Below are positions 8,001 to 24,133 of a stretch of DNA of 55,340 nucleotides, piece after piece. Origin of the DNA: a virus. The notes below the pieces were generated by a model. That model was not told where the DNA came from. It made no database searches and saw only the letters and a list, made by a program, of their open reading frames with translations. The stretch is taken from IMG/VR virus record IMGVR_UViG_3300036852_000116, positions 1-55,340 of that record. One strand, given 5' to 3'. The number at the start of each line of letters is the position of its first letter. Position 1 is the stretch's first letter. The position numbers and the translations under genes were made by a program.

Positions 8001-10577
8001 ATGCCAACTACGTACTACGGTGACGGAAGTTTATACGGAGATGCAGACGCGATCTACGGTCGCATCTCATCAGAACTCCTAGCAGCTCAGATTACTTCTG
8101 TTCGTGAGACTGGGCTCAAAGTACGTATTATTGATGAGCGTTCTAATCGATGGGAGTTCCTGGCAGGTGTAGACCAGAATCCTGTTGCATATCATGCAAA
8201 CGAAGAGTTTAGGAACCAGAAGAACCAGAAGTACTATTCTTATCGTGGTCAGTCAGACATCTGCGTCCTCGACAATGGAAACTTCTACCGAGTTAGAGTA
8301 GATGTAGACGACCAGCAGATCTATGATCAGACGATTACTGATCCCACAGTTACTGCTCAGTGGACTTCTTGGAGCTTACTATATTCGGGACTTCATTACT
8401 CAGTAGCAGTTGCAGCTAATGGAAATATTCCAGTCGTCTACACTGCGAAGTCTGATGGAATCTATCGTAACAACTCTCTGGAATGGTCTATTGCTAATGC
8501 GATGGGTATTCAGTGTCATAGGGGTTCTGATGGGCGCCAGGAAGTGGATAAGCTGTGGATTAAAGTAGTGGGAGATGGTGGATGGTCGCCACAGGGTGGG
8601 GGTCGTACACTTCGGAAATTTGACTTCTACTATACTAGTGATATTGAATCCATTACACCAGTAGAAGTTCCCTGGAATCTTGGTTGGTTCAGACATGATG
8701 TTGCTAGTATCGTCAGGGGAGACGGGAAGGCCGTTCGTCTAGTCACCTATCCTCTCTATGCTTCTGAGCTTGCTGGTAATGGTGGTGAGTCCATCACTGC
8801 CGAACTGGTTGCTGATCCAGCCAACATTGGAACCGAACTCAAGGGACCTCGATTGATTCGTGGACTGCCAGGAGAATATGGTCACAATACCGTTTCTGGA
8901 TCAGATATCTTTAAGTTGTCGGATGGATACTACTACATCTTCTACCATGAAGTACATGTCTCTGACGATTGGGAGTTTAGTTCTAACGTAGAGACTCCAC
9001 TGGTTTGGCAGCGTTCTAAGGATTTGCTTGCATGGTCCGAACCAGTTCACTCTGGACACAATGCCTGGGGATTTGCCGGGGTAGTTGAAAGAAATGGAAT
9101 AGTCTATCTCTGTGGAAACGGAGCTGTTCATCAGAGACCTGGTACCTCAGTTGAATATGATATCTCTGATCATGTTCCACAGGTAGGGTGGGAGAGCCCT
9201 CGGGAGAATCAATCTGGTACTGGTCAACTTCTAGTCGCTAATCCAGATGATGTCCATTCAGAAATTCTAGATCTGTCTGATCGTAGGATCATTATAGAGC
9301 CTGGTATCAAAACCGGAGCAGCTTATGAATATGCCAGACTTGATGATCATTGGGTTAAGCAGATTAAGAAGACCTTAGATGGTAATGCCAACCGTCTTAC
9401 TGTGGATTTTGGTAACATCTGGACCCGATTAGAAAACCCCATGAGGGATGTGATTAACTTCATCGGAAGAACAGATTATCATGATTGGGGTGACTCAGAA
9501 CCTAACGAACCATTTGCTTACTACTTCGATACTGGAGAAGGCGTAGCAGCTGGTAATGTTCTAAGTATCACAGAAGGTCTCGTTCTCTGGACTGGTTGGA
9601 AGGGTCACAATCCCAACTTCCAGATTAGTTTCAACACGGTTGCTATAGATCTTTATCTCAGATATAAGGATGAGAACAACTATCTCAAGTTAGCTTATGC
9701 TAGCAACACTGTTACTCTTACCGAGGTTAGGCTCGGAGTTTCTACGGTCATTGGAACAACTGCAGTTGGAGCTACTGGTAGACTTGGTGTCAGAGCTCGA
9801 TGGAAGTCTTTTGACATTTGGGTGAATGGAGCTGTTGCTGTTACCTATACTCATGCATCTCCAAAACTTCTATCACCCGGATATGTTGGTTGGTCCAATG
9901 TTGGAGCCTATGGTGTGTTCGACTTTGACTTCGAAGACCTAGAGTACAACTATACCTCTGAGGATCTAATCCGTCAAGCTTTGGCGATGGGTGACTACCA
10001 TGATGTGAAAGTTGGAAGTGCGTCCGCCAAGCAGTATGCTCTTACCTGGGGTCCACAAACTGACCTCCCAACCCCGGCTGATGGATTACGTCAGGTTTTA
10101 GAAGGTGAAAAGTTAGAACTCATCTGGAGAGATGGTTTCATCGAGGTTGGCCAGTTTAAGGATGTGGGAGTTGTCAAAACTATTGAAAATCGTATCATCA
10201 ATACTGAACTGGCCAATGCAGGTAATCGTCGTATCAACCTAGCCAATGTGGATGGCAACGAACATACTTGGTTTGAGGTTGACATTCCAGATGCTCTTGA
10301 AAGAGATCGTATGATCAATGCATACTTTGACTTGCCCGAGTTGTTGGACAAGGATAAAGTCAGGGAAAGAGCCCAAGAAGAGATTAGACGCAGTGGTCTA
10401 GCGGAGGCTCCTGGTGGACTAGTTCCTCTCTTCTTTGATCTATGGCGTATGGATGTTATAGAGTGGGTTGACAACTCTGGAGATTCTAAGACTGTTAGAA
10501 TCGAGGGTATCAGAGTAGAGATTAACCAGAGCAGTGAGCCATCTCAACGACAGCAGCTGGATACGAGTTTAGTATGA
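8001..10577 (+). CDS. Large tail protein with propeller-like and LamG-like domains, probable receptor-binding protein
   Basis: An 858-residue protein. Residues about 60-420 contain repeated strands with Trp/Tyr-rich turns like those of sialidase-type beta-propellers (SDGIYRNNSLEWS, WQRSKDLLAWSEPVHSG). Residues about 480-640 resemble a concanavalin/LamG-like carbohydrate-binding sandwich (LYLRYKDENNYLKLAY ... FDIWVNGAV). The C-terminal third (RERAQEEIRRSG and the strands after it) looks like the baseplate-anchoring part of tail-associated proteins. A protein of this build beside the other tip genes is the best candidate for binding, and perhaps degrading, a host glycan. No catalytic residue could be fixed by eye. 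Confidence 0.6.
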   Translation: MPTTYYGDGSLYGDADAIYGRISSELLAAQITSVRETGLKVRIIDERSNRWEFLAGVDQNPVAYHANEEFRNQKNQKYYSYRGQSDICVLDNGNFYRVRVDVDDQQIYDQTITDPTVTAQWTSWSLLYSGLHYSVAVAANGNIPVVYTAKSDGIYRNNSLEWSIANAMGIQCHRGSDGRQEVDKLWIKVVGDGGWSPQGGGRTLRKFDFYYTSDIESITPVEVPWNLGWFRHDVASIVRGDGKAVRLVTYPLYASELAGNGGESITAELVADPANIGTELKGPRLIRGLPGEYGHNTVSGSDIFKLSDGYYYIFYHEVHVSDDWEFSSNVETPLVWQRSKDLLAWSEPVHSGHNAWGFAGVVERNGIVYLCGNGAVHQRPGTSVEYDISDHVPQVGWESPRENQSGTGQLLVANPDDVHSEILDLSDRRIIIEPGIKTGAAYEYARLDDHWVKQIKKTLDGNANRLTVDFGNIWTRLENPMRDVINFIGRTDYHDWGDSEPNEPFAYYFDTGEGVAAGNVLSITEGLVLWTGWKGHNPNFQISFNTVAIDLYLRYKDENNYLKLAYASNTVTLTEVRLGVSTVIGTTAVGATGRLGVRARWKSFDIWVNGAVAVTYTHASPKLLSPGYVGWSNVGAYGVFDFDFEDLEYNYTSEDLIRQALAMGDYHDVKVGSASAKQYALTWGPQTDLPTPADGLRQVLEGEKLELIWRDGFIEVGQFKDVGVVKTIENRIINTELANAGNRRINLANVDGNEHTWFEVDIPDALERDRMINAYFDLPELLDKDKVRERAQEEIRRSGLAEAPGGLVPLFFDLWRMDVIEWVDNSGDSKTVRIEGIRVEINQSSEPSQRQQLDTSLV

Positions 10578-10849
10578 GTACTGTTCGTAGAACACCACGT
10601 CAAGCCATCAGAGATATCAGCAAGAGCACTGTACGACAGCGGATTCACCACGGTAGGCTTGCTGAAAACTACGATGGTATTGGACAACATGTTTTGGTTT
10701 CTCTATCACAATCTTCTACATCTGCAGCTTATAGAGCCAAGGTTGCTGCCGGGGATTTTGGAACCGGACAGGTCATCCCTGTGGGTACTAAGGTTTCTGT
10801 TATCTCTATTCGTGGGCAACTTGAGATAGTTTCTATGGGCGCAAAGTGA
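10574..10849 (+). CDS. Small tail-associated protein, first copy of a duplicated domain
   Basis: A 91-residue protein overlapping the end of the receptor-binding gene (ATGA). Residues 20-88 are clearly homologous to the N-terminus of the next gene: both have GRLAE(N/D)YDGIGQ, VSLSQSS, KVAAGDFG/RVAAGDFG and VISIRGQLE. The strand-rich pattern with a final VxVISIRGQLEI suggests a small OB- or SH3-like barrel. Function unknown. It may be an adaptor that holds the next protein on the tail tip. Confidence 0.6.
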   Translation: MSTVRRTPRQAIRDISKSTVRQRIHHGRLAENYDGIGQHVLVSLSQSSTSAAYRAKVAAGDFGTGQVIPVGTKVSVISIRGQLEIVSMGAK

Positions 10850-11706
10850 AGAGACTTCACGATCTAGTCAAGCAACCACACAGAGTACATATGGGACGAT
10901 TGGCCGAGGATTATGATGGTATCGGTCAATACGTGATGGTATCTCTATCACAATCCTCAGTTGCTGCTGCTTTCAAGGCGCGAGTAGCTGCTGGTGATTT
11001 TGGTGGTAGACGACGTATTCCTATGGGAACCAGAGTTCCTGTTATCAGTATTCGTGGTCAGTTAGAAGTACTACTAGGGAATAGACCACAACCTGTCGTA
11101 ATTCCTGCACCATTTGTTGTTCGAGATGACGGTAACTTGTCTGGTACCGTGGGAGGATTCACAGTTGTAGCTGGTGACGCTTTCTACGTATTCCTCTCTA
11201 CTCCAACAGAGTTCGCAGTTACATCAGTAGGTTGGTCTATAGGAGGTCAAGCACTTGCTCCAGTAGTTGGTAGTCCCAGAGTTAATGGAGATACCCGTCA
11301 AGAACTCTGGTGGTTGCAGAATCCAAATGCTGGGCTCGGACAGATAGCCGGAAGCAACGGAACTGGTAGCATTCCCCTTATTGTGTGGCAAGTACGGGGG
11401 CGTGGATCAGAAACAGTTGACGTTTATGATGAGTCGAGTGGGAATAGCGCTTCTTCAAGTATATCTTTAATTCCTGCTGCTGGGCAGTTGCGTCTTGACG
11501 CAGCATGTCATCATCATATGGGCGGTGGTGGAGCCCCAGGTTCAGCTCCTCCAACACCAGGAGCAGAGCAGATCCTTGGCACAGCTCTTAATACAGAGGC
11601 TGCTGATGTAGAGTTCGGTAGTACCCAAGGTGGTTCAGGTCCAGCTACATGGGCGTTCACTGGATCAATGACTTGGGTTGCACAGGCGATTCTTATCAAC
11701 GGTTAA
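10846..11706 (+). CDS. Tail tip protein with the duplicated barrel domain
   Basis: A 286-residue protein starting at a GTG that overlaps the upstream stop (GTGA). Residues 10-70 repeat the domain of the previous gene. The rest is Gly/Ser/Val-rich beta sequence. A DAACHHHMGGGGAPG stretch (around residues 215-230) could bind a metal, and the C-terminus resembles a phage fibre tip that ends in AWTFTG-like strands. It precedes the lysis genes and is probably a minor fibre component. Confidence 0.5.
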   Translation: MKRLHDLVKQPHRVHMGRLAEDYDGIGQYVMVSLSQSSVAAAFKARVAAGDFGGRRRIPMGTRVPVISIRGQLEVLLGNRPQPVVIPAPFVVRDDGNLSGTVGGFTVVAGDAFYVFLSTPTEFAVTSVGWSIGGQALAPVVGSPRVNGDTRQELWWLQNPNAGLGQIAGSNGTGSIPLIVWQVRGRGSETVDVYDESSGNSASSSISLIPAAGQLRLDAACHHHMGGGGAPGSAPPTPGAEQILGTALNTEAADVEFGSTQGGSGPATWAFTGSMTWVAQAILING

Positions 11707-13470: not shown

Positions 13471-14058
13471 TCAGATATCGTCGTCGTCCACCTCGATTTC
13501 CTCGTCTTCATCTTCGTCGGTTTCTTCGGTCAGGTCCGCGTCCTCGTCTTCTTCCTCTTCTTCGTCCTCATCTTCATCCTCGTCGTCATCTTCGTCGATG
13601 GTTCCTGCGGCTAGAGCTTCATACTCATCCTTGGGGAACCAATCTTGAATCTGAGACTTGGTCTTGTTATCGTAGGTGTGATCGGCGATGCTCGCTGCAT
13701 AGGACCGACCAACGATCTTTTCAAGTGGAACCTTGGTAACCGAAGATGGTACCTTCAGCCCGATGGCTTCAAAAAAGTTCCTCAGACGGAACAGAGCCTT
13801 CTGGCTTAGAGAATACATCTCCGAGTAGTCACCATCTGTCGGTCCCTTCTTGATGGTGTTCTCGATTCTGATCCACCCCGGATCATCGTCAGCCGGCGAG
13901 ACGGCGTAATCCTTCACCTTCAGAAGGTAGTCGCCCTCTGGAACTCGACGGCCCCGCTTTCCCTCAACTCCCGTGAAGTCGATTTGTAGGTTCTTTGGCT
14001 TGCGAGTAGTTTTCTCGCTGCTAGAGCCCTTCTTGGACTTCTTAATCTTCTTCGCCAT
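13471..14058 (-). CDS. DUF669-like putative single-stranded DNA-binding protein
   Basis: A 195-residue protein. The N-terminal 28 residues are Lys-rich. Residues 40-140 carry the DUF669-like pattern PEGDYLLKVKDY ... GWIRIENTIKKGP ... SLSQKALFRLRNFFEAIG. The C-terminal 45 residues are almost entirely Asp and Glu, as in T7 gp2.5 and bacterial SSB, where such a tail recruits partner proteins and gates DNA binding. It overlaps the Sak4-like ATPase gene by 17 bases, and DUF669 proteins often sit beside such recombinases. GGAGAAG precedes the chosen ATG. Function is inferred from family and context. Confidence 0.7.
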   Translation of the reverse strand: MAKKIKKSKKGSSSEKTTRKPKNLQIDFTGVEGKRGRRVPEGDYLLKVKDYAVSPADDDPGWIRIENTIKKGPTDGDYSEMYSLSQKALFRLRNFFEAIGLKVPSSVTKVPLEKIVGRSYAASIADHTYDNKTKSQIQDWFPKDEYEALAAGTIDEDDDEDEDEDEEEEEDEDADLTEETDEDEDEEIEVDDDDI

Positions 14059-14902
14059 TTGTCTTCTCCAACGTTGGTAGGATTGTGTCTATGAAGTATT
14101 GTAAGGTGGGATTTCTTACGACTCGAGGTACGAGAACATCTGACGTCGGATCCTGACGTAGCTTGGTAACGTACCTGTCATCATCCCCAACGAGTAGTCT
14201 CCATTCCCAGGTCTTCTTAGCTTTCCCGTCCTTTCCCTTCTTAGTGATGGGCTTCTTGTAGAGTCGTCCCACGATATGTACTAGGTTGATCAATGCGTCT
14301 CGCGGGGCGGGTGAGAGAGCCGGGTGGGTTTCTACAAGAGTTGTTCCCTCCTCTTCGTCATCATATTCTGTGTCCCGCTCGTGAGCATTGAAGATAACGT
14401 GCATATCCAAGTTGCGCCAGTTATCAAATGAGGTTGTTAGCAATTGTGCTAGCTTTCCCCAGCTACGCTTATCAGGCATAAGTGGATCACGATTGGCATC
14501 TCTCGTAGCATCGTCACCAAGTACCCACTTCATCCCGATCTTGGCCATGCTGGTTGTGGTATCTAGAACTGCTACCTTGAAGTCGTGTTTAGCATTCTTC
14601 AAATACCAATAGATGAGATCTAGCTCACTCCAATGAGTTACTCGATATACTTTTACGTTTTTACGCTTCTTGATTGAGATTGTACCCTTCTCATTGAAGT
14701 CAATTACGATTGTCTTCAAATTAGAAGAAGTAGATAAAGATGTCTTTCCCTTACCTCCTTTAGAATAGATCAACATATAAAGATAGTCTTTGACATCACC
14801 TACTGGAATGATTAGGTCTTTGGCTAAAACTACTTTTTCTTTACGCGATAGCTTCTTCCCCTTCATCTTCTTGATCTGATTCGGGGTCAAAGCCGATGCC
14901 AT
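14042..14902 (-). CDS. Sak4-like RecA-fold ATPase (recombinase)
   Basis: A 286-residue P-loop protein of the AAA_24/Sak4 type, a minimal RecA-like core that helps anneal or pair single strands during phage recombination. Walker A is IYSKGGKGKTSL (about residues 45-56), Walker B is KVAVLDTTTS, and a polar sensor (VIFNAHERD) follows. The surrounding genes encode an SSB-like protein and a Cas4/AddB-like nuclease, which supports a role in recombination-dependent replication. An AGGAAG site supports the ATG at 14902, which overlaps the upstream gene by 62 bases. Confidence 0.82.
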   Translation of the reverse strand: MASALTPNQIKKMKGKKLSRKEKVVLAKDLIIPVGDVKDYLYMLIYSKGGKGKTSLSTSSNLKTIVIDFNEKGTISIKKRKNVKVYRVTHWSELDLIYWYLKNAKHDFKVAVLDTTTSMAKIGMKWVLGDDATRDANRDPLMPDKRSWGKLAQLLTTSFDNWRNLDMHVIFNAHERDTEYDDEEEGTTLVETHPALSPAPRDALINLVHIVGRLYKKPITKKGKDGKAKKTWEWRLLVGDDDRYVTKLRQDPTSDVLVPRVVRNPTLQYFIDTILPTLEKTNGEED

Positions 14903-15884
14903 GTTTCTTCCTCGGTTCGAAGCGTGTCTTTCTTAGGTGGCTCATATCAAACCCATTCAATTCACCTCTACATAGATCATGGAAGTCACACATGGTCGCA
15001 CAGTCTTTCGTGATGTTTCTTACGTGTGACTTACGTTGACGAGATAGATGGATTTCTCGAGCGGTAGCAATGAAGTCCTTGAGGATCTGCTCGGTAACCT
15101 TTCGCTCGCGCGGGAGTCTATACCGTTTGAGAAGTCTGGATTCTCTTCTCAGTGGCCTGAGGAAATCGCTGTAGTCAGCAGGATCATATCCATTATCCTT
15201 CAAGAACTTGAGAGCGGTTGGGTAGTCTGTGACGATTTTACGCCTGGAGATTTGCCCGGTCTTCTTTGTGAGTTGTGGAATGGTAGGTGGACGAGACTTC
15301 ATGTAATTGTAGATGATACCAGCGATCCGTCCGAACTTTGGCTTAGCACCCACAGGATATAGCATGAGCTGTGGGTCCATCGCGTGAAAGGCATTCTGGT
15401 CAGGAATCTGACTCGTAGACTTGTGGTCAATAACCCAGCGGTTGCCTTCATCATCTTCGATTACTAGATCGATCTTGCCCTTAGCTTGGACGATTACCTT
15501 GACGCCGTTGACCTTGAAGAAGCCAATCTCAATTTCGAACTCATACTCAGCGGCGAGAACTTTCCACCCGTCGTGTTTCCAGTACCACAGGTAAGACTTG
15601 ATGATCCTTCTGACAGCCTGCGGGAGAGGACCATACTTCTTACTGAGTTCTTCTCGTTCTTCTTCGAATAGAGAGTTCCATTCCTTCAGGTATTCCTTGT
15701 GGCCAATCTTCCAGTCGCCCTGAGCATAGTGAGTTTCTAAGGCTCTGTGAAGCCAGTTTCCCAGATATGGAGCTCGCTTCTTGGCTTTGGGTTCCAAGCC
15801 TTCTAAATACTTGTAAGCCCATTGCTTCTCGCATCGTTGGCGAGTTTTAGCCTCACTCCAACTAACGCTGATCGTGTCCGTCAT
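14841..15884 (-). CDS. Cas4/AddB-like PD-(D/E)XK nuclease with iron-sulphur cysteines
   Basis: A 347-residue nuclease of the RecB/Cas4 group. Signature elements: WSEAKTRQRCEKQWAYKY near the N-terminus (first Cys), GNWLHRALE, GKIDLVI with the catalytic Asp, WVIDHKST with D-x-K, and the C-terminal trio DCATMCDFHDLC. One early and three late Cys match the four ligands of the 4Fe-4S cluster in Cas4 and AddB. It probably resects DNA ends to load the neighbouring SSB-like and Sak4-like proteins. The start ATG lies six bases after a perfect -10 hexamer, so the mRNA appears to be leaderless. Confidence 0.85.
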   Translation of the reverse strand: MTDTISVSWSEAKTRQRCEKQWAYKYLEGLEPKAKKRAPYLGNWLHRALETHYAQGDWKIGHKEYLKEWNSLFEEEREELSKKYGPLPQAVRRIIKSYLWYWKHDGWKVLAAEYEFEIEIGFFKVNGVKVIVQAKGKIDLVIEDDEGNRWVIDHKSTSQIPDQNAFHAMDPQLMLYPVGAKPKFGRIAGIIYNYMKSRPPTIPQLTKKTGQISRRKIVTDYPTALKFLKDNGYDPADYSDFLRPLRRESRLLKRYRLPRERKVTEQILKDFIATAREIHLSRQRKSHVRNITKDCATMCDFHDLCRGELNGFDMSHLRKTRFEPRKKHGIGFDPESDQEDEGEEAIA

Positions 15885-16283: not shown

Positions 16284-16578
16284 CTCGACTCTTCCTTGTG
16301 ATTTGTAAGATTCTTTGTTTGGTAACTCCAAACACCTTACCAAGAGTATCACTACCAGTTCCAGCCCAATACAACATAATCACTATCTCATCCCTACTCA
16401 GGAGTTGTCCACAGTGAGGGCAAGATAGTTTAATCAACCCTTTCTTGGGCTTGTAGTGAGCACAAGATAAGCAGAACTGACTATAGCTCTGACCTTTCTT
16501 CTTACCACATCTGGAACAGTTAGGATAATAGTAGTTTCTAGTTCCCGGCTTACGTAGTTTTAGTGGCCTTCTCCCCAA
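16210..16578 (-). CDS. Zinc-ribbon and helix-turn-helix protein
   Basis: A 122-residue protein starting at TTG inside the end of the polymerase gene. Two Cys pairs (NCSRCGKKKGQ, FCLSC) form a ribbon, a third pair (CPHCG) follows, and SDTLGKVFGVTKQRILQI resembles the helix-turn-helix of sigma region 4. That combination suggests a DNA-binding regulator or a polymerase-associated factor. The last 25 residues overlap the next gene and may be only a by-product of that overlap. Confidence 0.55.
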   Translation of the reverse strand: MGRRPLKLRKPGTRNYYYPNCSRCGKKKGQSYSQFCLSCAHYKPKKGLIKLSCPHCGQLLSRDEIVIMLYWAGTGSDTLGKVFGVTKQRILQITRKSRDENHHSSQTGRQNNSDVGVDEKRT

Positions 16579-19019
16579 TGATCACCTACCGTTATATCTA
16601 CTTGAATCGGGATGGTTGGTGTGTATCCGAAGTAGCTCTTTAAGGGCAGATTCTCCATTGTGGATTTAATTATCTCTGTGGCCGTCTGGACATAATCATC
16701 ATCAATTTCAAACAGCACAGCATCATGGACGTTGCCGATTATGCTCGCGCGTGATGTATCCAATTTCTGATTGAGGAGTACCATCGAAAGAACCGTGAGG
16801 TCCGAAGCAAATCCCTGAACCGGTGCATTGATAGCTTCTCTTTCGGCTTGACCTTGGAGGAACTCGTCTCCAGAATTGATTGAAGGAAGGTGTCGAACCC
16901 TTCCGATGGGCGAAGAGACATGTTGAAGGTTACGGACGAGCCGCCTTTGACGATCGTGCCACGGAAGTAAGGCTTTGAACTGGTTAAAGAAAGCCTTTCG
17001 ATACTCTTTGGCTTCCTCTTCAGAAACTTTGGTTTGGAATTTTTCATCAGCATATACCCTAAACTTCTTTGGTCCCATCCCATACAGGAAACCGAAGTTG
17101 ACTGCCTTCGCTAGCTTGCGTTCTTCCTTGGTGATGTCCTTCGGATCCTTACCAGTTATCTTTACCGCCGTTTCCAGATGGGCGTCTCGTCCTGATCTAA
17201 ATATTTCTGTAAGTTCTCTATCTCGAGACACCATTGCGGCAATTCTAAGTTCGATTTGGCTAAAGTCAGCCTCGACAAACCTCCTCTCACGTTTCCCTTG
17301 TGCAACCCGAACAGCGTTGGTTTTTCGATTGATACCGATGATTCCTCGAATAAGAACGTTCCTGGGCACCTGTTGCATGTTAGAACTAAGTCTTCCAGTA
17401 ACAGTACCCGAGAGATTGTATGAGGTGAAAAGTCGTGGTTTACCAGCAGCTGCAGTGCGGGCCAGCCAAGAACGACTGTAGGTCGATTCATACTTCTGCC
17501 ATTTCCTGAGCTCCATGAGAAGTCCCACAGCTCTGTGCTTCGTCTTGAGTTTCAGTAAGACTGCTTCCTTAGTAGATGGTTTTCCACTCTTCGGAGTATA
17601 TTCGATAACTGGCAGCTCAAGAATTTCAAAGAAGAACTTGCCTAGGAAGTTACCTGAGAACTTAATTGCTGGTGATCTTATATCCTCGGGAACATATTGC
17701 AACATCTTCTGTCTGGTCCGCTCGATGCGTTCTAAAATCTTCTCGTGCCTCGCGCGTAAGCGCCTCATATCTACTGGGAAGCCATTCGCTTCTATCTCAA
17801 CAAACTCGTTGCACGCTGGCATTACCAAGAGTTTGAAGATTCTTAGAAGTCGTGGTCGTTCCTTAAGCTGAGACCTAAAGAGATGGTAGAGTCGGAGGGT
17901 ATAATCAGTATCTTTCCCGTTGTAAGTTGCCAGAGGACCGAGGGGGTGCGGTCTTCTGAAGTCAATATCATCTTCATATGCGTCGGCACCCAAGAAAGTA
18001 CGCGCAAGGGGTTTAAGCCCGTTTGGTCGGTTCTCATCAAGAAGATGTGCTGCGAGTAGTGTATCGAAGGAGGCACGTAGATTCACTCCCTTCCTGCGCA
18101 TTCCTGACATATCAAACTTAGCGTTATGACCGATCATCTTCTTGCCTTCTAGAGCGACATTCAGAGCTGAGTAGACTTCCTTGATAGGAATGTCCCACTT
18201 CACCTCTGGATGTTCTAGGGCCACAACATAACTAGTTCCGGGTTCCCACGTGAAGGAACAGGTGAGAATGATCCACTTGGGATGCCAGACATGAAGTCCA
18301 CCTTTCTTCGCTTCCTTCCCGGATGCTTGATATCCTGGTCCCCATGACTCGATGTCGAAGGAAATTGGAGTATCCACAGACTCGATCAATTTTAAGAACT
18401 TGGCAAGGCTCTTACTAGATCGGATGATATAACTCTTGGTCTGTGGTCGTGTTTCTTCTCCCGATACTATCCGCGCAAGCGTGCGTAGGTCAGATCTAAA
18501 CATCTCCTCCCATGCTGGTGTACGAATAACCGCAGCTGGGTGGATGGTGGGGAAGTAAGAGATGCCATTCTTCTTGACTAAGGCTCCTCTCCTCCTCATG
18601 ATTCCTTTTACGCCTAGCGTTGCCTGTAGCGCGGCATTTCCAAGTGGAACCACGAACTCAGGCTGAACGGCCCCAATTTCATCCAGTAGGTAATGATTGC
18701 ATGTTCTGATTTCAGTCCTGGTAGGTGTTCGATTGTCCGGAGGTCTACACCTACAAGCATTTGTAACGTAAACACTCTCGCGGGGTAAGCCCACTTCGGA
18801 TAGTACAGCATCCAGATACTTGCCCGCCTTCCCTGCAAACGGCTTGGCTTCATCATCTTCCCTGTACCCGGGAGCTTCACCCACGAGCATAACCCTGCTG
18901 GGAACAGGCCCATCTCCCATAACGCAGACCGACTGCGCGGATAGATGGAGAGGGCATTCCTCGCAATTGGGATTGCGGTATGGCTCCCAAACTTTAAGTC
19001 GCGCATCTTCAGTTACCAT
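16560..19019 (-). CDS. DNA polymerase I with N-terminal family-4 uracil-DNA glycosylase domain
   Basis: An 819-residue fusion. Residues about 1-190 match family-4 UDG: Cys pair CEEC, VGEAPGYREDDEAKPF, AGKAGKYLD, CRCRPPDNRTPT with two more Cys for a 4Fe-4S cluster, and HPAAVIR. Residues about 215-390 are a DEDDy 3'-5' exonuclease (SFDIES, IGHNAKFD, YNGKDTDY). The rest is a family A polymerase: motif A ADFSQIELR, motif B KLAKAVNFGFLYG with Phe at the ddNTP-selectivity position, and motif C VHDAVLFE, where Ala replaces the usual Glu. The same fusion is known from phage SPO1. It should be the replicative enzyme of the phage. The start overlaps the deaminase gene by 11 bases. Confidence 0.93.
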   Translation of the reverse strand: MVTEDARLKVWEPYRNPNCEECPLHLSAQSVCVMGDGPVPSRVMLVGEAPGYREDDEAKPFAGKAGKYLDAVLSEVGLPRESVYVTNACRCRPPDNRTPTRTEIRTCNHYLLDEIGAVQPEFVVPLGNAALQATLGVKGIMRRRGALVKKNGISYFPTIHPAAVIRTPAWEEMFRSDLRTLARIVSGEETRPQTKSYIIRSSKSLAKFLKLIESVDTPISFDIESWGPGYQASGKEAKKGGLHVWHPKWIILTCSFTWEPGTSYVVALEHPEVKWDIPIKEVYSALNVALEGKKMIGHNAKFDMSGMRRKGVNLRASFDTLLAAHLLDENRPNGLKPLARTFLGADAYEDDIDFRRPHPLGPLATYNGKDTDYTLRLYHLFRSQLKERPRLLRIFKLLVMPACNEFVEIEANGFPVDMRRLRARHEKILERIERTRQKMLQYVPEDIRSPAIKFSGNFLGKFFFEILELPVIEYTPKSGKPSTKEAVLLKLKTKHRAVGLLMELRKWQKYESTYSRSWLARTAAAGKPRLFTSYNLSGTVTGRLSSNMQQVPRNVLIRGIIGINRKTNAVRVAQGKRERRFVEADFSQIELRIAAMVSRDRELTEIFRSGRDAHLETAVKITGKDPKDITKEERKLAKAVNFGFLYGMGPKKFRVYADEKFQTKVSEEEAKEYRKAFFNQFKALLPWHDRQRRLVRNLQHVSSPIGRVRHLPSINSGDEFLQGQAEREAINAPVQGFASDLTVLSMVLLNQKLDTSRASIIGNVHDAVLFEIDDDYVQTATEIIKSTMENLPLKSYFGYTPTIPIQVDITVGDHWGEGH

Positions 19020-19458
19020 CTACGGTCCTGACATCACTAGGAAACTGGTGTACTATAATCCCGGCATCCACCATCAATCGCAGACCTCTAGGATCACGAT
19101 AAGAGTGATGATAAACTACTCGGGTGATACCTGCTTCGATGATAAGTGAAGCGCAATTTCCACAGGGAGCGATAGTTGTATAGAGAGTTGTCCCACAACT
19201 TCCTCCTGATATGCCCTGTGAATATCGAATAGCGTTGTCTTCAGCATGAATTGTTCGAGTGCATCCTCCGTGAGTTCCAATAATACACCCGGCCACGTCA
19301 CAGTGAGCTTCTCCGGGCCGTGAACCAACGTAGCCCGAACTAATGATCCGTGAGTCGAGACATAGAATTGCACCGACCTCAGCTCGTGGACATGTTCCTC
19401 GTTTGGCAACAACATGGGCAATCTCCATTAGCATATGATCACGGCTGATTCGAGCCAT
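19009..19458 (-). CDS. dCMP deaminase
   Basis: A 149-residue zinc deaminase that turns dCMP into dUMP. Visible motifs: GTCPRAEVGA, GYVGSRPG, HCD...GC, CTRTIHAEDNAI (zinc His and catalytic Glu) and APCGNCASLII (two zinc Cys). The ATG at 19458 begins one base after the stop of the upstream gene; earlier in-frame starts would overlap that gene by 35-134 bases. It lies between a TS/hydroxymethylase-like gene and the polymerase, so it feeds the phage pyrimidine pool and could also act on a hydroxymethylated dCMP if one is made. Confidence 0.9.
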   Translation of the reverse strand: MARISRDHMLMEIAHVVAKRGTCPRAEVGAILCLDSRIISSGYVGSRPGEAHCDVAGCIIGTHGGCTRTIHAEDNAIRYSQGISGGSCGTTLYTTIAPCGNCASLIIEAGITRVVYHHSYRDPRGLRLMVDAGIIVHQFPSDVRTVDGN

Positions 19459-19459
19459 A

Positions 19460-20128
19460 TCAGAATACTCCAGCCACGTCCTTCTGGTAAACATGGAGAG
19501 ATCCGATCCAGTGGGTAAATCGACCTGCTGGGATTCCAGTCTCTGCCGCCACGTATTCCTGAAGTTTCCGTGAGAGGTATTGGTCATTCTCAAAGTGTGT
19601 TGCGAAGTCTGCCGATCGTTGCATATATCTCATATGCAATTGCCCGCCACGATTGATGAAGAAGTATCCTAGTGAACATGGAACTCTCTTCTTTCCCAAT
19701 CTGAGTGGGTCCGTGAAACTCTCCCATACAGATAAGAAAAGCTGTCGACTTTCGGGATGAACTTTAAGTTCTTTAATGATGTAAGGTAATGTGTCTGAGT
19801 AGCGTTCTCCATAAGAATATCCAAACCCACGATCAGCAAATTCTTGCCATACTTCTGGTCTGAGTTTCCAAGCCTCAGCTGCACCTGGCCAGACGAAGTT
19901 TATCCTCTCTTTAAACTCAACATCTGCCCACGGTTGGTTGGGATTGAGATCTTCCAATCTTGGGGCCAGAATCATGTATTCATAGTCTAGAAGTTCACGA
20001 GTATCGTAATCTGGATCATTGGAGATATCCTTATCCTGCATAGTCTGTGGATGTACACTAACACCAAGCTCTGCCAGGTCCCGCTTGATCTCGTTGTTAG
20101 CCTGCTTGAAGTCCGAGAAGGATCTCAT
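19460..20128 (-). CDS. Thymidylate synthase superfamily protein, dCMP hydroxymethylase-like
   Basis: A 222-residue enzyme. Superfamily marks: FGYSYGERY (phosphate loop), SRQ after the HPE segment, catalytic Cys in RVPCSLGY, MQRSAD and GSLHVY. Two local features resemble T4 gp42 dCMP hydroxymethylase more than thymidylate synthase: the sequence F-x-N-D-x-Y after RSAD, where synthases have PFNI with Asn contacting the uracil ring, and GSLHVY, identical in gp42. By that comparison an Asp replaces the uracil-contacting Asn, so the substrate may be dCMP. It is shorter than most synthases and lacks their C-terminal region. Neighbours are dCMP deaminase and a second TS-like gene. Confidence 0.75.
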   Translation of the reverse strand: MRSFSDFKQANNEIKRDLAELGVSVHPQTMQDKDISNDPDYDTRELLDYEYMILAPRLEDLNPNQPWADVEFKERINFVWPGAAEAWKLRPEVWQEFADRGFGYSYGERYSDTLPYIIKELKVHPESRQLFLSVWESFTDPLRLGKKRVPCSLGYFFINRGGQLHMRYMQRSADFATHFENDQYLSRKLQEYVAAETGIPAGRFTHWIGSLHVYQKDVAGVF

Positions 20129-21011
20129 CTTCTTCGACGTCCTGTTCTGATTCAGTAACGATATCTAGTGATCGCTTGCCCTTACCCGTGAGAACAAGTT
20201 CGCTTGCCTCCCGAGAAGTCAGCCTACGGTTGATTTTCTTGCGTGCTTCCCATCCTTTCAATGTAAGATTGTCCACAGGGAGCGATCTGTAGATGCCCTG
20301 CTCTACTCGATCTAGTTTTTGCTTCCATCTCCTGGCTGCTCTCCACGGAATATCATCTGCCGGACGATTCATGTAGTCGATGTAGTATTGGATTGACTCT
20401 GCGATCCTGTCCTCGCGCGCGAGATATTTATCGACTAAGTTCCACCTGGTCAGTGGTACTAGAACCTCTACCATCTTAATGATGAAGTTAGCACAGTGTA
20501 CTTCTAAAGCTATCTCTTCTTGTGGGATTTTGAGTCTCTCAGCAATTCTTCGAGCAACGAAGTCCGAGAGAGCGTAGTCAGCAACTCCTGAGAAGCCAAG
20601 AGATTGGGCGCGAGTATATAGAGAGAGGACGGGTTTCGGCTTGCGACGGAAGCTAAAACCCATAAGGCAATTTCCCCACTGGTGTACGGCCTTCTTCCCA
20701 GTAAAATTAGGTGGGACGATCTTGAAGGTCCAGAGTGCATCATATGTTTTCACATTCCCAGCATTGTTGATCCACGCATGGAGACTCTCAACATCTACGT
20801 ACTGTCCGGTGAACTTCGACCACTTGGTGATTGTAAGGTCAATATCGCCCAGATCAAAATCGAATACAGCACTATCAGCACGCAGGAGATTACCAAACGA
20901 ATGGACGATGTTTCGCTGATAGAAATCGATAACACCAGGCTTGTCGTCAAGCATACTGAAGTAAGCAGATTTCCAAGCAGTTTTGATATCTGGATGTGTC
21001 TCAATGATCAC
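20097..21011 (-). CDS. Divergent thymidylate-synthase-like protein, possible base-modification enzyme
   Basis: A 304-residue protein. The GTG at 21011 is chosen because it overlaps the upstream stop (GTGA) and follows GGAG; the longer frame would begin inside the previous gene with a Ser-rich stretch that looks non-native. Residues about 130-210 can be read as a degenerate synthase core: NCLMGFSFR with a Cys in the active-site position, then LSLYTRAQSLGF and a helix DYALSDFVARRIAERLKIP, corresponding to QRSxD and the helix after it. The usual C-terminal motif is missing. The last 130 residues are helical and charged. Which base or nucleotide it handles is unknown. The TS relation is my reading and is tentative. 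Confidence 0.5.
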   Translation of the reverse strand: MIIETHPDIKTAWKSAYFSMLDDKPGVIDFYQRNIVHSFGNLLRADSAVFDFDLGDIDLTITKWSKFTGQYVDVESLHAWINNAGNVKTYDALWTFKIVPPNFTGKKAVHQWGNCLMGFSFRRKPKPVLSLYTRAQSLGFSGVADYALSDFVARRIAERLKIPQEEIALEVHCANFIIKMVEVLVPLTRWNLVDKYLAREDRIAESIQYYIDYMNRPADDIPWRAARRWKQKLDRVEQGIYRSLPVDNLTLKGWEARKKINRRLTSREASELVLTGKGKRSLDIVTESEQDVEEDEILLGLQAG

Positions 21012-21280
21012 CTGCCACTCTCCGCTTGACGCTGACGACGAAGATCGGCGGCTGCCAGAGCCTGAGTTACTAACTCTAAGAATTCGCTTTTCTTGAGGAT
21101 TCCTAGCTGAATCAGCACGGTAAGACAAACCGAGACTTCTGCATGCATCACGCTAGGTTCACCATACTGCCTGATCAGTCTATCCCTGAATGGCATCTTA
21201 TCATCAGCTGGTATTCCATACGCCATATCACTCTGTGGGAATGGGACATAGATGTGGGGTTTGGGTCGATTGGGTGCCAT
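21008..21280 (-). CDS. Hypothetical 90-residue protein of the pyrimidine operon
   Basis: Starts at an ATG overlapping the upstream stop by one base (TGATG) and ends with GTGA coupling to the TS-like gene. Two parts are visible: a Pro-rich N-terminus (PKPHIYVPFPQSD) and a C-terminal helix (LGILKKSEFLELVTQALAAA). Tight coupling on both sides suggests it works with the nucleotide enzymes, but no family is recognised. Confidence 0.6.
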   Translation of the reverse strand: MAPNRPKPHIYVPFPQSDMAYGIPADDKMPFRDRLIRQYGEPSVMHAEVSVCLTVLIQLGILKKSEFLELVTQALAAADLRRQRQAESGR

Positions 21281-21693
21281 CAGTAGTTGCTCTCCTGTCT
21301 AAAAAGATTTACTTCAGATTTCTTGAAATATAGCTTGTAGAGATCCTCTGCAGTCAACCCAGATTTGATAGCCCATCTGATGTAAAAGTGGAAACCATCA
21401 GCCATCTCTTCGAAGTAGTGATCCTCATCCGTGATCACTGGAGTTTGTTTCCATGGTTTATTCTTCAAGCAGTTGGTGGCTTCGGAGATTTCTTCAACAA
21501 TACGGTAAGCAGCGTCCTTGAGATACCGCTGGAATCCATAATCGTTGAGATCTCTACTAGGTGGGCTTGGGAACCCGTTGGCGGTTTCAATGGATTCGTA
21601 CTGATCCTCAAGCTCTTGTTGTCGGTTAAAAATGTTTTGGAGCCAGTCGCCATCTTCGGGCGCCTCTGTGTCAATATCTTTGATGTTAACCAT
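21280..21693 (-). CDS. All-alpha NTP pyrophosphohydrolase, dimeric dUTPase-like
   Basis: A 137-residue protein. The ATG at 21693 overlaps the kinase stop (TAATG); a longer in-frame start inside the kinase gene is unlikely. The metal-binding pattern of the MazG/dimeric dUTPase superfamily is present: YRIVEEISEATN (E-E-x2-E), then KNKPWKQ, then EEMADGFHFYIRWAI (E-x2-D), and the end YFKKSEVNLFRQ, as in dimeric dUTPases (KxxVNxxRQ). Such enzymes hydrolyse dUTP, or in some phages dTTP or modified dUTP, to keep a nucleotide out of DNA. That fits the neighbouring synthase-like, deaminase and kinase genes. Confidence 0.75.
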   Translation of the reverse strand: MVNIKDIDTEAPEDGDWLQNIFNRQQELEDQYESIETANGFPSPPSRDLNDYGFQRYLKDAAYRIVEEISEATNCLKNKPWKQTPVITDEDHYFEEMADGFHFYIRWAIKSGLTAEDLYKLYFKKSEVNLFRQESNY

Positions 21694-22232
21694 TATACGT
21701 AGATATACCTCATCACTCGCTTCAGGAGAGGTTGTATTCCTTCGGTCCAATCATACTTCATAAAGTTTCCATTGTAGTGAGGTGCTTCTTCTAACATAAG
21801 TTTGTCATAGGCAATCAATAGATCTTTAAACTTCTCATGTACTCCTATCATCTGGTCATTGGTCTTAGAATCTCTGTCGATAATTTGTGCGGGCGGGCGA
21901 CAGTAGATCAAGAAGGCATATTTCCTCAAGAACTCTTGCACATACTTTCGAACTGCTACTGGCATATCCATCTTGTTACGAAGCACAGGACCGTAAACAA
22001 ACTCAGGGTAGAAGAACCTATCGTGAACCACCACCTTTTCCATAGGGTTCTCAGCTAGTTTCTCCATCCACCATGTGGGCATGGGTGATTTACCTGGAGT
22101 GTGATCTCGGTTGTACCCAACTATTAGATGTCCATTATCTCCCAGGAATTCCATCAGTTGGTCAGCGAGAGTTGTCTTCCCAGAACCATCCATCCCATCG
22201 ATCAAGATTCTAGCATAAGGTCTAAATTTCAT
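21693..22232 (-). CDS. Thymidylate/deoxynucleotide monophosphate kinase
   Basis: A 179-residue P-loop kinase: IDGMDGSGKTTLADQL (Walker A), HDRFFYPEFVYGP (substrate-binding D-R-F/Y), and a lid region DRDSKTNDQMIG. The ATG at 22232 has AGGAGG four bases upstream; the upstream in-frame ATG lies in the -10 box. The enzyme would phosphorylate dTMP or a modified dNMP such as hydroxymethyl-dUMP or -dCMP. It is the first gene after a strong promoter and heads the leftward pyrimidine and replication operon. Confidence 0.85.
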   Translation of the reverse strand: MKFRPYARILIDGMDGSGKTTLADQLMEFLGDNGHLIVGYNRDHTPGKSPMPTWWMEKLAENPMEKVVVHDRFFYPEFVYGPVLRNKMDMPVAVRKYVQEFLRKYAFLIYCRPPAQIIDRDSKTNDQMIGVHEKFKDLLIAYDKLMLEEAPHYNGNFMKYDWTEGIQPLLKRVMRYIYV

Positions 22233-22250
22233 GGCGCCTCCTGTGGTTCC

Positions 22251-22279
22251 ATTATAATACATCTAAGATCATTTGTCAA
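22251..22279 (-). promoter_or_regulatory. Promoter of the pyrimidine-replication operon
   Basis: Minus strand: TTGACA (22279-22274), 17-base spacer, TATAAT (22256-22251). The -35 box contains the TGA stop codon of the upstream helicase gene. The mRNA leader is about 12 bases and holds AGGAGG. Confidence 0.85.
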
Positions 22280-23709
22280 TGTCCATTGGGACGGAGAATC
22301 CTTGGATCATGAACGATAGCGTGAGCTAAATCACCTTTATCTTTCAGGATGGTAAGTGTAAGTGCATCGATAGTTCTGGGTACGACCAAGTGATAGTAAG
22401 TAACCTTATTCCTCTGACCGTGACGATGGAGTCTATCCTGTGCCTGAACGTAATTGGCGTAGGCATAGTCCAAGCTGTAAAAGATAGCCACAGAAGACGC
22501 AGTGAGATCAATCCCAAGGCTGCCCGCCTGAATCTGCGCAATGAACACTTTAGTTCTATCATCATTCTGGAACCTCTCAATTAAACTGTCGCGTTGGTTG
22601 TGCGGGACACTTCCGGACAGTATTAAGGGCTCAATCTTGAACTTCTTCTTGATCGCCTCTTCTATCCGTTCAATATCCTTGCGAAACCTAACGAAGATGA
22701 CAACTTTCTTCTGCTGTGCGATAATATCATCTAACAGGTCCATGCAAACGTTAAGCTTGCTGTTATCAAATACGCGGATCTGATCGTTAACGTCTTTGAT
22801 GAAGCCCGAGGTGATCTGTGAGAGGCGGAGAATCTTGACCAGTACGATAGCTGCTGTGGCATGAGTCTCCTCGATCTCAATGATCATCTCTTTCGCCATC
22901 TTCCGGTAATAGTCCATAGCTTTCTGTCCAAGTTCGACCGGGACAGTTACGAACACTTTCTCTGGGAGGTCGATGGCCTGCTCTTTCTTGATGCGGAAAG
23001 TATTGCCCCGTACCTTCCCCACAAGTTCGTCTAGGTGTTTGTATCCTTTGAGCTGGTACCTTCCCCACCCGCCCCAAATCCCAAACCGGTTCTTGAAGCG
23101 ATACCAGTTACTCCCAAAGATCGCTGAGTCTATGAACCGAAATTGCCCAAATATGTCGAGAGGGCTCTTTGTAATTGGAGTACCAGTGAGAACAAGACGT
23201 TGTTCGGCGAATCCTCCAATTCTAGCAGCCGCTTTAGACTGCTTCGCTGTTGAAGACTTAATTCGATGTCCTTCGTCACAGATAACGAGGTCTGGTCCCC
23301 ACTTCTCCAAGAGATCTTCAATTCTATTTCTACCGTCTCCACGCCATATGCCTTCATAGTTAATGATCAACCAATCTTGTGTAGGCTGTGGGCTCCTGAT
23401 CATGCGTCTTATAGAGGCAGCACGTTCAGGAGTTGAACCTGTCAGGACTCTCACTCGTGCGAAGAATGGAAGGTGTTGCTTGATCTGTCTCTGCCACACT
23501 CCGATCACAGATAATGGGCAGATTACTAGCACCCGCTTGACTTCGTAGTTGTGATAACCTATGCCAGCCCAGTCGATCGCTACCTTCGTCTTGCCCGTGC
23601 CCATCTCCATGAAGAGCCCGGCCTTACCATCTAGTGTCTGGATCTTGTTGAGTGCCCTGAGTTGATATCTGTATGGCTTAGTCTTGAACTTATACTTAAC
23701 TTTCGACAC
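22276..23709 (-). CDS. SNF2-family DNA helicase/translocase
   Basis: A 477-residue superfamily 2 ATPase. N-terminal Q-motif-like YRYQLRALNKI, Walker A LFMEMGTGKTKVA, DEGH box, LVLTGTPITKSPLDIF, and in the second lobe LILSGSVPHNQR, QAGSLGIDLTASS and AQDRLHRHGQ (motif VI). The LTGTPI and RLHRHGQ forms are typical of SNF2-type translocases, which many phages encode near the replication genes to move along or remodel DNA. It starts at GTG and overlaps the upstream gene by 14 bases. Confidence 0.92.
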   Translation of the reverse strand: MSKVKYKFKTKPYRYQLRALNKIQTLDGKAGLFMEMGTGKTKVAIDWAGIGYHNYEVKRVLVICPLSVIGVWQRQIKQHLPFFARVRVLTGSTPERAASIRRMIRSPQPTQDWLIINYEGIWRGDGRNRIEDLLEKWGPDLVICDEGHRIKSSTAKQSKAAARIGGFAEQRLVLTGTPITKSPLDIFGQFRFIDSAIFGSNWYRFKNRFGIWGGWGRYQLKGYKHLDELVGKVRGNTFRIKKEQAIDLPEKVFVTVPVELGQKAMDYYRKMAKEMIIEIEETHATAAIVLVKILRLSQITSGFIKDVNDQIRVFDNSKLNVCMDLLDDIIAQQKKVVIFVRFRKDIERIEEAIKKKFKIEPLILSGSVPHNQRDSLIERFQNDDRTKVFIAQIQAGSLGIDLTASSVAIFYSLDYAYANYVQAQDRLHRHGQRNKVTYYHLVVPRTIDALTLTILKDKGDLAHAIVHDPRILRPNGH

Positions 23710-24133
23710 GTGGGAATACCTTAACTCTCACTCCTGCATATCTAGATATCTTGATCATATCAACTGTACCACGAGAGACAGACAAGTCACGATGGAAAGC
23801 AAGAACCATGCCATCTTCACCTGTCTTCTCCATCCATTTCAGCATTAGTCTCAGTTGTTTACGGTTGCGTCTTGGACCGGCAGGCTTTCCATACTTTTCC
23901 CATTCTGCGGGAGTAGACTTCATTGGTGTACTACTAATCCATGCCCAATATCTACTACACTGATCAGCACCTGGTGCTTCACCTTGATAAAGTTTGGTGA
24001 TTCCATATTTCTGATCTACTTTGGCAAGTATTGCCATCATATAGTTGAAGTCACGTTTACCCTCTCGAGTAGGACCAACTTCAAATAAGAAATCATTAGC
24101 CCAATGACGATCACCACAGACTAAGACAATCAA
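23696..24133 (-). CDS. SLOG-family (DUF2493/YspA-like) protein
   Basis: A 145-residue protein with the Rossmann-like SLOG pattern: VCGDRHWANDF at the N-terminus, LYQGEAPGADQCSRYWA (the G-x-A-x-G-A-D motif), PAEWEKYGKPAGPRRNRKQL and a C-terminal SRGTVDMIKISRYAG. SLOG domains bind nucleotides or nucleotide-sugar ligands and are linked to signalling and nucleotide processing in phages and defence systems. The start is TTG, overlapping the previous stop (TTGA). Confidence 0.8.
   Translation of the reverse strand: MIVLVCGDRHWANDFLFEVGPTREGKRDFNYMMAILAKVDQKYGITKLYQGEAPGADQCSRYWAWISSTPMKSTPAEWEKYGKPAGPRRNRKQLRLMLKWMEKTGEDGMVLAFHRDLSVSRGTVDMIKISRYAGVRVKVFPRVES

Follow-up and report, generated by a model that had tools for sequence, protein, structure and literature searches.

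The 55,340-nucleotide viral DNA analyzed here (IMG/VR record IMGVR_UViG_3300036852_000116, positions 1 to 55,340; referred to as the window) carries a module of six overlapping minus-strand genes at positions 19009–22262, which adjoins a gene for DNA polymerase I (PolI) fused to a uracil-DNA glycosylase (UDG) domain. Two of the six genes encode proteins of the thymidylate synthase (TS) superfamily, which we refer to as P3 and P4. Adjacent genes overlap by between a few and some tens of bases, as they do in operons with translational coupling. The original prediction, made from the sequence, described five overlapping genes and a UDG-fused polymerase; all of these genes lie on the minus strand, and Pfam searches recovered the families of all but P4, but the prediction had missed a sixth gene, the 90-residue open reading frame (ORF) at 21008–21280. 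The module and the polymerase gene comprise:

19009..19593, minus strand: deoxycytidine monophosphate (dCMP) deaminase (PF00383, E = 1.7e-19; phrog_174, dCMP deaminase, 6e-43)
19460..20128, minus strand: P3, a 222-residue TS-family protein of the cytosine type (Thymidylat_synt, PF00303, E = 1.4e-14)
20097..21011, minus strand: P4, a 304-residue divergent TS-superfamily protein with a GTG start at 21011 (PHROG phrog_13667, unknown, E = 1.4e-19)
21008..21280, minus strand: P5, a 90-residue protein without a Pfam match (16 homologues, at the same place in the gene order)
21280..21750, minus strand: P6, an all-alpha dNTP pyrophosphatase of the dUTPase_2/T4 gp56 family (PF08761, E = 7.9e-11)
21693..22262, minus strand: dNMP (thymidylate-like) kinase (Thymidylate_kin, PF02223, E = 1.6e-6; phrog_761, 6.8e-15)
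16560..19019, minus strand: PolI with an N-terminal UDG-superfamily domain (PF00476, 6.6e-81; PF03167, 1.4e-30), syntenic

The deaminase ORF has a likely ATG start near 19494, and both zinc motifs of its translation (HAE and PCxxC) are intact; the P6 ORF holds an in-frame ATG at 21693. P5 is restricted to the nearer relatives, its gene sitting between those of P4 and the dUTPase-like protein. All members of the T4-type set (dCTPase, dCMP deaminase, cytosine-type TS and dNMP kinase) are present, the kinase being of the thymidylate-kinase type.

P4 had been described as TS-like by inspection alone, and both fold prediction and profile searches bore this out. The AlphaFold (AF2) model of P4 has a predicted local distance difference test (pLDDT) score of 85.6. 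A Foldseek search with this model returned 16 PDB matches at E ≤ 0.001, all of them TS, dCMP/CMP hydroxymethylases or the dCMP hydroxylase AfhB, led by AfhB (9iqu, E = 1.5e-6; 9iqc), MilA and T4 gp42; the model also matches viral TS and dCMP hydroxymethylases. For the sequence comparison we used a profile of 139 distinct P4 proteins grown without admitting P3, a first uncontrolled iteration having drifted into P3. This P4-only profile reaches AfhB at E = 8e-6, whereas the best of 9384 decoy ORFs scored 0.06. With the broadened P4 set, hhalign linked P4 to P3 (probability 79%) and to AfhB (88%); comparison of the P4 profile with E. coli TS and gp42 gave no direct match to either.

The conserved residues of P4 fall on the catalytic positions of TS. 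Across 54 diverse P4 proteins, mostly 11–30% identical to that of the window, the only invariant residues are Tyr71, Cys115, Arg134 and Asp145, and hhalign pairs the last three with Cys151, Arg171 and Asp182 of P3. In the full alignment the cysteine is retained in 138 of 138 ungapped sequences and the arginine and aspartate in 139 of 139 each, with TS-like spacing. These invariants coincide with the nucleophilic cysteine, the phosphate-binding arginine and the pyrimidine-selecting aspartate of TS, plus Tyr94. Since nothing else is invariant, P4 looks catalytic. The positions of the folate-contacting Asp169, of His207 and of the cross-subunit Arg126 are variable in P4. That P4 is unrelated to TS and its motif match coincidental is scarcely credible in view of the fold search, the broadened profile search and the fact that the invariant residues sit at precisely the catalytic positions of TS, even though the close relatives of P4 alone gave no Pfam match, no PDB sequence match and no link to TS in profile comparison (hhalign probability 1.5%). 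In the phylogeny, P4 proteins group in one deep clade separate from TS, P3 and AfhB, with an approximate likelihood ratio (SH-aLRT) support of 100; the alignment has few columns, and only this split was used. The modeled fold and the sequence profiles together confirm that P4 belongs to the TS superfamily, and by the same evidence it is a previously unannotated TS-fold family, the second beside P3. P4 was also considered as an aGPT-PPlase or another known hypermodification enzyme and gave no family match.

P3 is more readily placed. Its residues in the window include Cys151, Arg171, Asp174, Asp182 and His212, and alignment with E. coli TS and T4 gp42 shows that Tyr94, Arg126, Cys146, Arg166, Asp169 and His207 (E. 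coli TS numbering, used below for TS positions) are retained. Position 177 is Asp in 125 of 130 aligned P3 homologues; the five with Asn177 are other TS genes pulled into the set, including the canonical TS of phage Triscuit. Asp177 is the cytosine determinant, equivalent to Asp179 of T4 gp42 (PMC6400193), and positions 177 and 147 discriminate best between TS proteins from contigs with modified cytosine and other TS proteins (PMC8670742). Position 147 is Ser or Thr in P3 homologues and Ser in the window. All three signature residues of T4 gp42 (Cys148, Asp171 and Asp179 in T4 numbering) are matched in P3, the phosphate pair being Arg-Gln in most P3 proteins versus Arg-Arg in gp42. Glu74 is conserved in 132 of 138 P3 proteins, although its match to the catalytic Glu60 of gp42 is alignment-dependent. 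The AlphaFold model of P3 (pLDDT 92) and its sequence both find AfhB (PDB 9iqc/9iqu) as the best solved match, with a fold E of 2e-17 and 28% identity over the full length, and profile comparison gave E = 2.6e-28 for AfhB versus 3e-14 for gp42. Two adjacent TS-superfamily proteins, one gp42-like and one very divergent, had been predicted; both are there, but the nearest characterized relative of each is AfhB rather than gp42. Asn169 and Val173, common to the four AfhB-like proteins compared, are not found in P3, where Asp169 is constant and His173 predominates; because of these differences, both hydroxymethylation and hydroxylation are possible for P3. Judged by its sequence, P3 is a cytosine-type TS homologue, with a predicted reaction on dCMP.

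The same aspartate narrows the choice of base. The proposal of a module for an unusual pyrimidine holds as far as a nucleotide-level modification gene set is concerned, and because both P3 (125/130) and P4 (139/139) carry the cytosine-specifying Asp, the modified base would be cytosine rather than thymine or uracil. An ordinary thymidylate-supply cassette would account for the names of the kinase, dUTPase, TS and dCMP deaminase, all of which belong to the dTMP pathway, and in Gordonia CT-cluster phages (Azira) the cassette is labeled “thymine synthesis”, with P4 not included (PMC10353413). We consider this explanation very unlikely. Asp instead of Asn at position 177 of P3 is a cytosine signature and contradicts the actinophage annotation of thymine synthesis plus a hypothetical protein, and thymidylate supply leaves no role for P4. 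In addition, several relatives have P3 together with a separate canonical TS (Triscuit, L106, L084, L068) or ThyX (L145) and thus do not depend on P3 for dTMP.

The window phage shares the gene set with no fewer than 130 other phage genomes, among them those of Gordonia and Mycobacterium phages in wide use. P4 was first found in 82–85 isolate records from phages of Gordonia (65–68), Mycobacterium (including Muddy), Streptomyces, Microbacterium and Curtobacterium, and distant homologues adjoin P3 in gut phage contigs and in the phages Serbin (Serratia) and Polewnik (Brevundimonas). The following neighbors of the module are syntenic:

22276..23709, minus strand: SNF2-type helicase, upstream (PF00176, 8e-29)
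14841..15884, minus strand: PD-(D/E)XK (Cas4-like) nuclease, downstream (PF12705, 2e-24)
14042..14902, minus strand: AAA_24 ATPase, downstream (PF13479, 7e-20)

The order SNF2 helicase, kinase, pyrophosphatase, P4, P3, dCMP deaminase, PolI, Cas4-like nuclease and AAA ATPase is kept in dozens of phages at only 17–25% P4 identity, which argues that the gene set is not a chance assembly. A SLOG-family protein of the YspA/YAcAr type adjoins the SNF2 helicase gene (23696–24133, minus strand; PF10686, E = 6.7e-7). Elsewhere in the window, two adjacent plus-strand ORFs (10574–10849 and 10846–11706) share a duplicated N-terminal stretch, GRLAE.YDGIGQ.V.VSLSQSS, and likely represent a duplicated tail or structural gene.

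P3 lies within 2.5 kb of P4 in 129 of 129 distinct P4 loci with enough flanking sequence, and P4 lies beside P3 in 129 of 135 P3 loci; selection has partly shaped these counts, since P4 served to retrieve about 57 of the loci and P3 about 80. Two of the six P3 loci without an adjacent P4 belong to jumbo phages of 243–248 kb, in which one or two P4 genes lie approximately 85–90 kb from P3, so the pair is kept even when unlinked. The remaining four are fragments, one of 55 kb (L088) and three of 17–40 kb (L092, L138 and L103) in which P4 was not found. P3-only loci were accordingly rejected as proof that P3 works alone, and P4 is found with P3 in every sufficiently complete genome checked. The P4 slot is occupied in L138 (4893–6014) by a C-5 cytosine-specific DNA methylase (PF00145, E = 2.3e-15) overlapping the P3 start, and in L103 by a second TS with Asp177. 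About a dozen phages have more than one P4 beside P3.

This distribution bears on whether P4 itself could be an AfhB-like flavin-dependent dCMP 5-hydroxylase, acting independently to make a second modified cytosine. In favor of this, P4 has AfhB as its closest match both among solved folds and in sequence, and neither protein has the folate-contacting Asp169. An independent enzyme, however, would be expected to occur without P3 at times, which is never the case in the 129 loci; AfhB keeps His207, Arg126 and Arg127, all three of which P4 lacks; and P3 is closer to AfhB than P4 is. We therefore regard an independent P4 hydroxylase as unlikely.

Obligate co-occurrence and adjacency also fit a single heteromeric dCMP-modifying enzyme, with P4 as its co-catalytic or regulatory subunit. 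TS enzymes are dimeric, with active-site arginines shared across the interface, and P3 keeps Arg126 whereas P4 does not; in some other enzymes, dead paralogues serve as co-catalytic or regulatory subunits. Evidence from gene exchange points the other way. Within one clade, P4 and PolI are 57–67% and 56–69% identical, respectively, to their counterparts in the window, and P3 is 56–76% identical in four relatives and only 29–32% in nine others. The P3 of these nine is instead 39–56% identical to the actinophage type, while the P4 of this clade is only about 20% identical to actinophage P4 (17–24% for the window P4). A roughly 30%-identical P3 has thus replaced the resident one beside a retained P4 of about 60% identity. 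The PF08761 pyrophosphatase was swapped in the same genomes as P3, the two flanking the conserved P4; this is a hint of matched specificities. Over 75 loci, P4 distances follow those of PolI (partial r 0.59) and not those of P3 (0.07), with distance saturation as a caveat. A complete catalytic core would, moreover, be needless in a mere subunit. Because P3 was exchanged beside a retained P4 and P4 distances track PolI, metabolic coupling is favored and a dedicated P3–P4 interface appears less likely; the heteromer is possible but somewhat doubtful.

The reading we favor, at about an even chance of being correct, is that the genes form a T4-like cytosine-modification module which acts before replication and employs two TS-fold enzymes. 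We infer its substrates, order of steps and product as follows. The gp56-family pyrophosphatase would convert dCTP to dCMP, which P3 would bind through its Asp and Cys and functionalize at C5, adding a hydroxymethyl group like T4 gp42 or a hydroxyl group like AfhB. The P4 cysteine would then add to C6 of a cytosine mononucleotide and a further step would follow, most likely on the P3 product. The kinase would bring the modified product to the diphosphate, PolI would insert the modified triphosphate, and dCMP deaminase would feed dUMP/dTMP synthesis. Cytosine in the DNA of these phages is probably replaced by the modified base. For P4 itself we tentatively suggest, as a possibility, that it is the first TS-fold enzyme to elaborate an already C5-modified dCMP: it may re-form a reactive C5-methylene or related adduct and couple a new group to it, yielding a hypermodified cytosine as a free nucleotide before replication. 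If so, a phage with a pair of P4 copies next to P3 or in its vicinity would run two such steps.

Several points weigh against this two-enzyme module. The Foldseek TM-scores of P4 are modest (0.44–0.59), and Tyr71 is equated with Tyr94 of TS by its position in the model, not by direct alignment. P4 could be a binding subunit, its folate and 3′-OH residues being lost, and a heteromer would also explain the strict co-conservation of P3 and P4. The two proteins could share dCMP as a substrate instead of acting in series. There is no precedent from which to map the reaction of P4, and our literature search brought up no account of modified DNA in Muddy, GTE2 or Gordonia phages, no virion-DNA experiment, and no nucleoside data for any phage with P4. 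The scan for sugar-transfer functions, which covered part of the window genes, turned up neither a glycosyltransferase nor another hypermodifying enzyme.

If this reading is correct, the TS superfamily would gain an enzyme family, and modified cytosine would be predicted in over 80 sequenced records of actinophages, among them relatives of Muddy that infect Mycobacteroides abscessus. Such a base would bear on the encounters of these phages with restriction and CRISPR defenses.

Among known systems, MilA, the CMP hydroxymethylase of the mildiomycin pathway, resembles P3 and P4 as a TS-fold cytidylate enzyme and is among the top folds of both, but it acts on CMP in a cellular antibiotic pathway. 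A protein of MW202455 labeled “pyrimidine hmase synthase” is a distant P4 homologue beside P3, the annotators' guess being a pyrimidine hydroxymethylase; the label looks automatic, and all other annotated P4 proteins seen are “hypothetical protein”.

AfhB, the 5-hydroxy-dCMP synthase of phage HY126 and of RB69-like Mosigvirus, is the nearest relative of both P3 and P4 in fold and sequence, a dCMP-acting TS-superfamily enzyme with Asp177 and, like P3, a short C-terminus. Its PDB entry (9iqu/9iqc) describes a riboflavin-dependent dCMP hydroxylase. It has Asn169 and Val173 where P3 has Asp169 and His173, and its locus contains sugar genes and a U32 protein, both absent from the window module. AfhB is a single TS-fold gene, and no P4 partner was found nearby; the 299-residue protein adjoining it was considered as such a partner and is not a P4. 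Mosigvirus phages make 5-hydroxy-dCMP through a TS-superfamily enzyme (PMC13390438). A protein of the U32-peptidase family is encoded just upstream of AfhB in HY126 (L142:6525–7685); members of this family include base hydroxylation enzymes, so a possible connection with 5-hydroxycytosine merits attention. Two proteins from other phages, the annotated gp42 dCMP hydroxymethylase of Acinetobacter phage Acj9 (L152:1399–2103) and its counterpart in Edwardsiella phage PEi26 (L154:764–1462), group with AfhB (Asn169, Val173), and by these residues their gp42 label is probably a misnomer.

The T4 set of gp42, dCTPase, dCMP deaminase and dNMP kinase follows the same logic as the window module. T4 gp56 is a dCTPase that clears dCTP; PF08761 is common to gp56 and P6, and gp42 shares Cys, Asp169 and Asp177 with P3. 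The two systems differ in that P3 is farther from gp42 than from AfhB, that no glucosyltransferase was found among the scanned window proteins, and that T4 has one TS-fold cytosine enzyme only, where the window has two TS-fold proteins.

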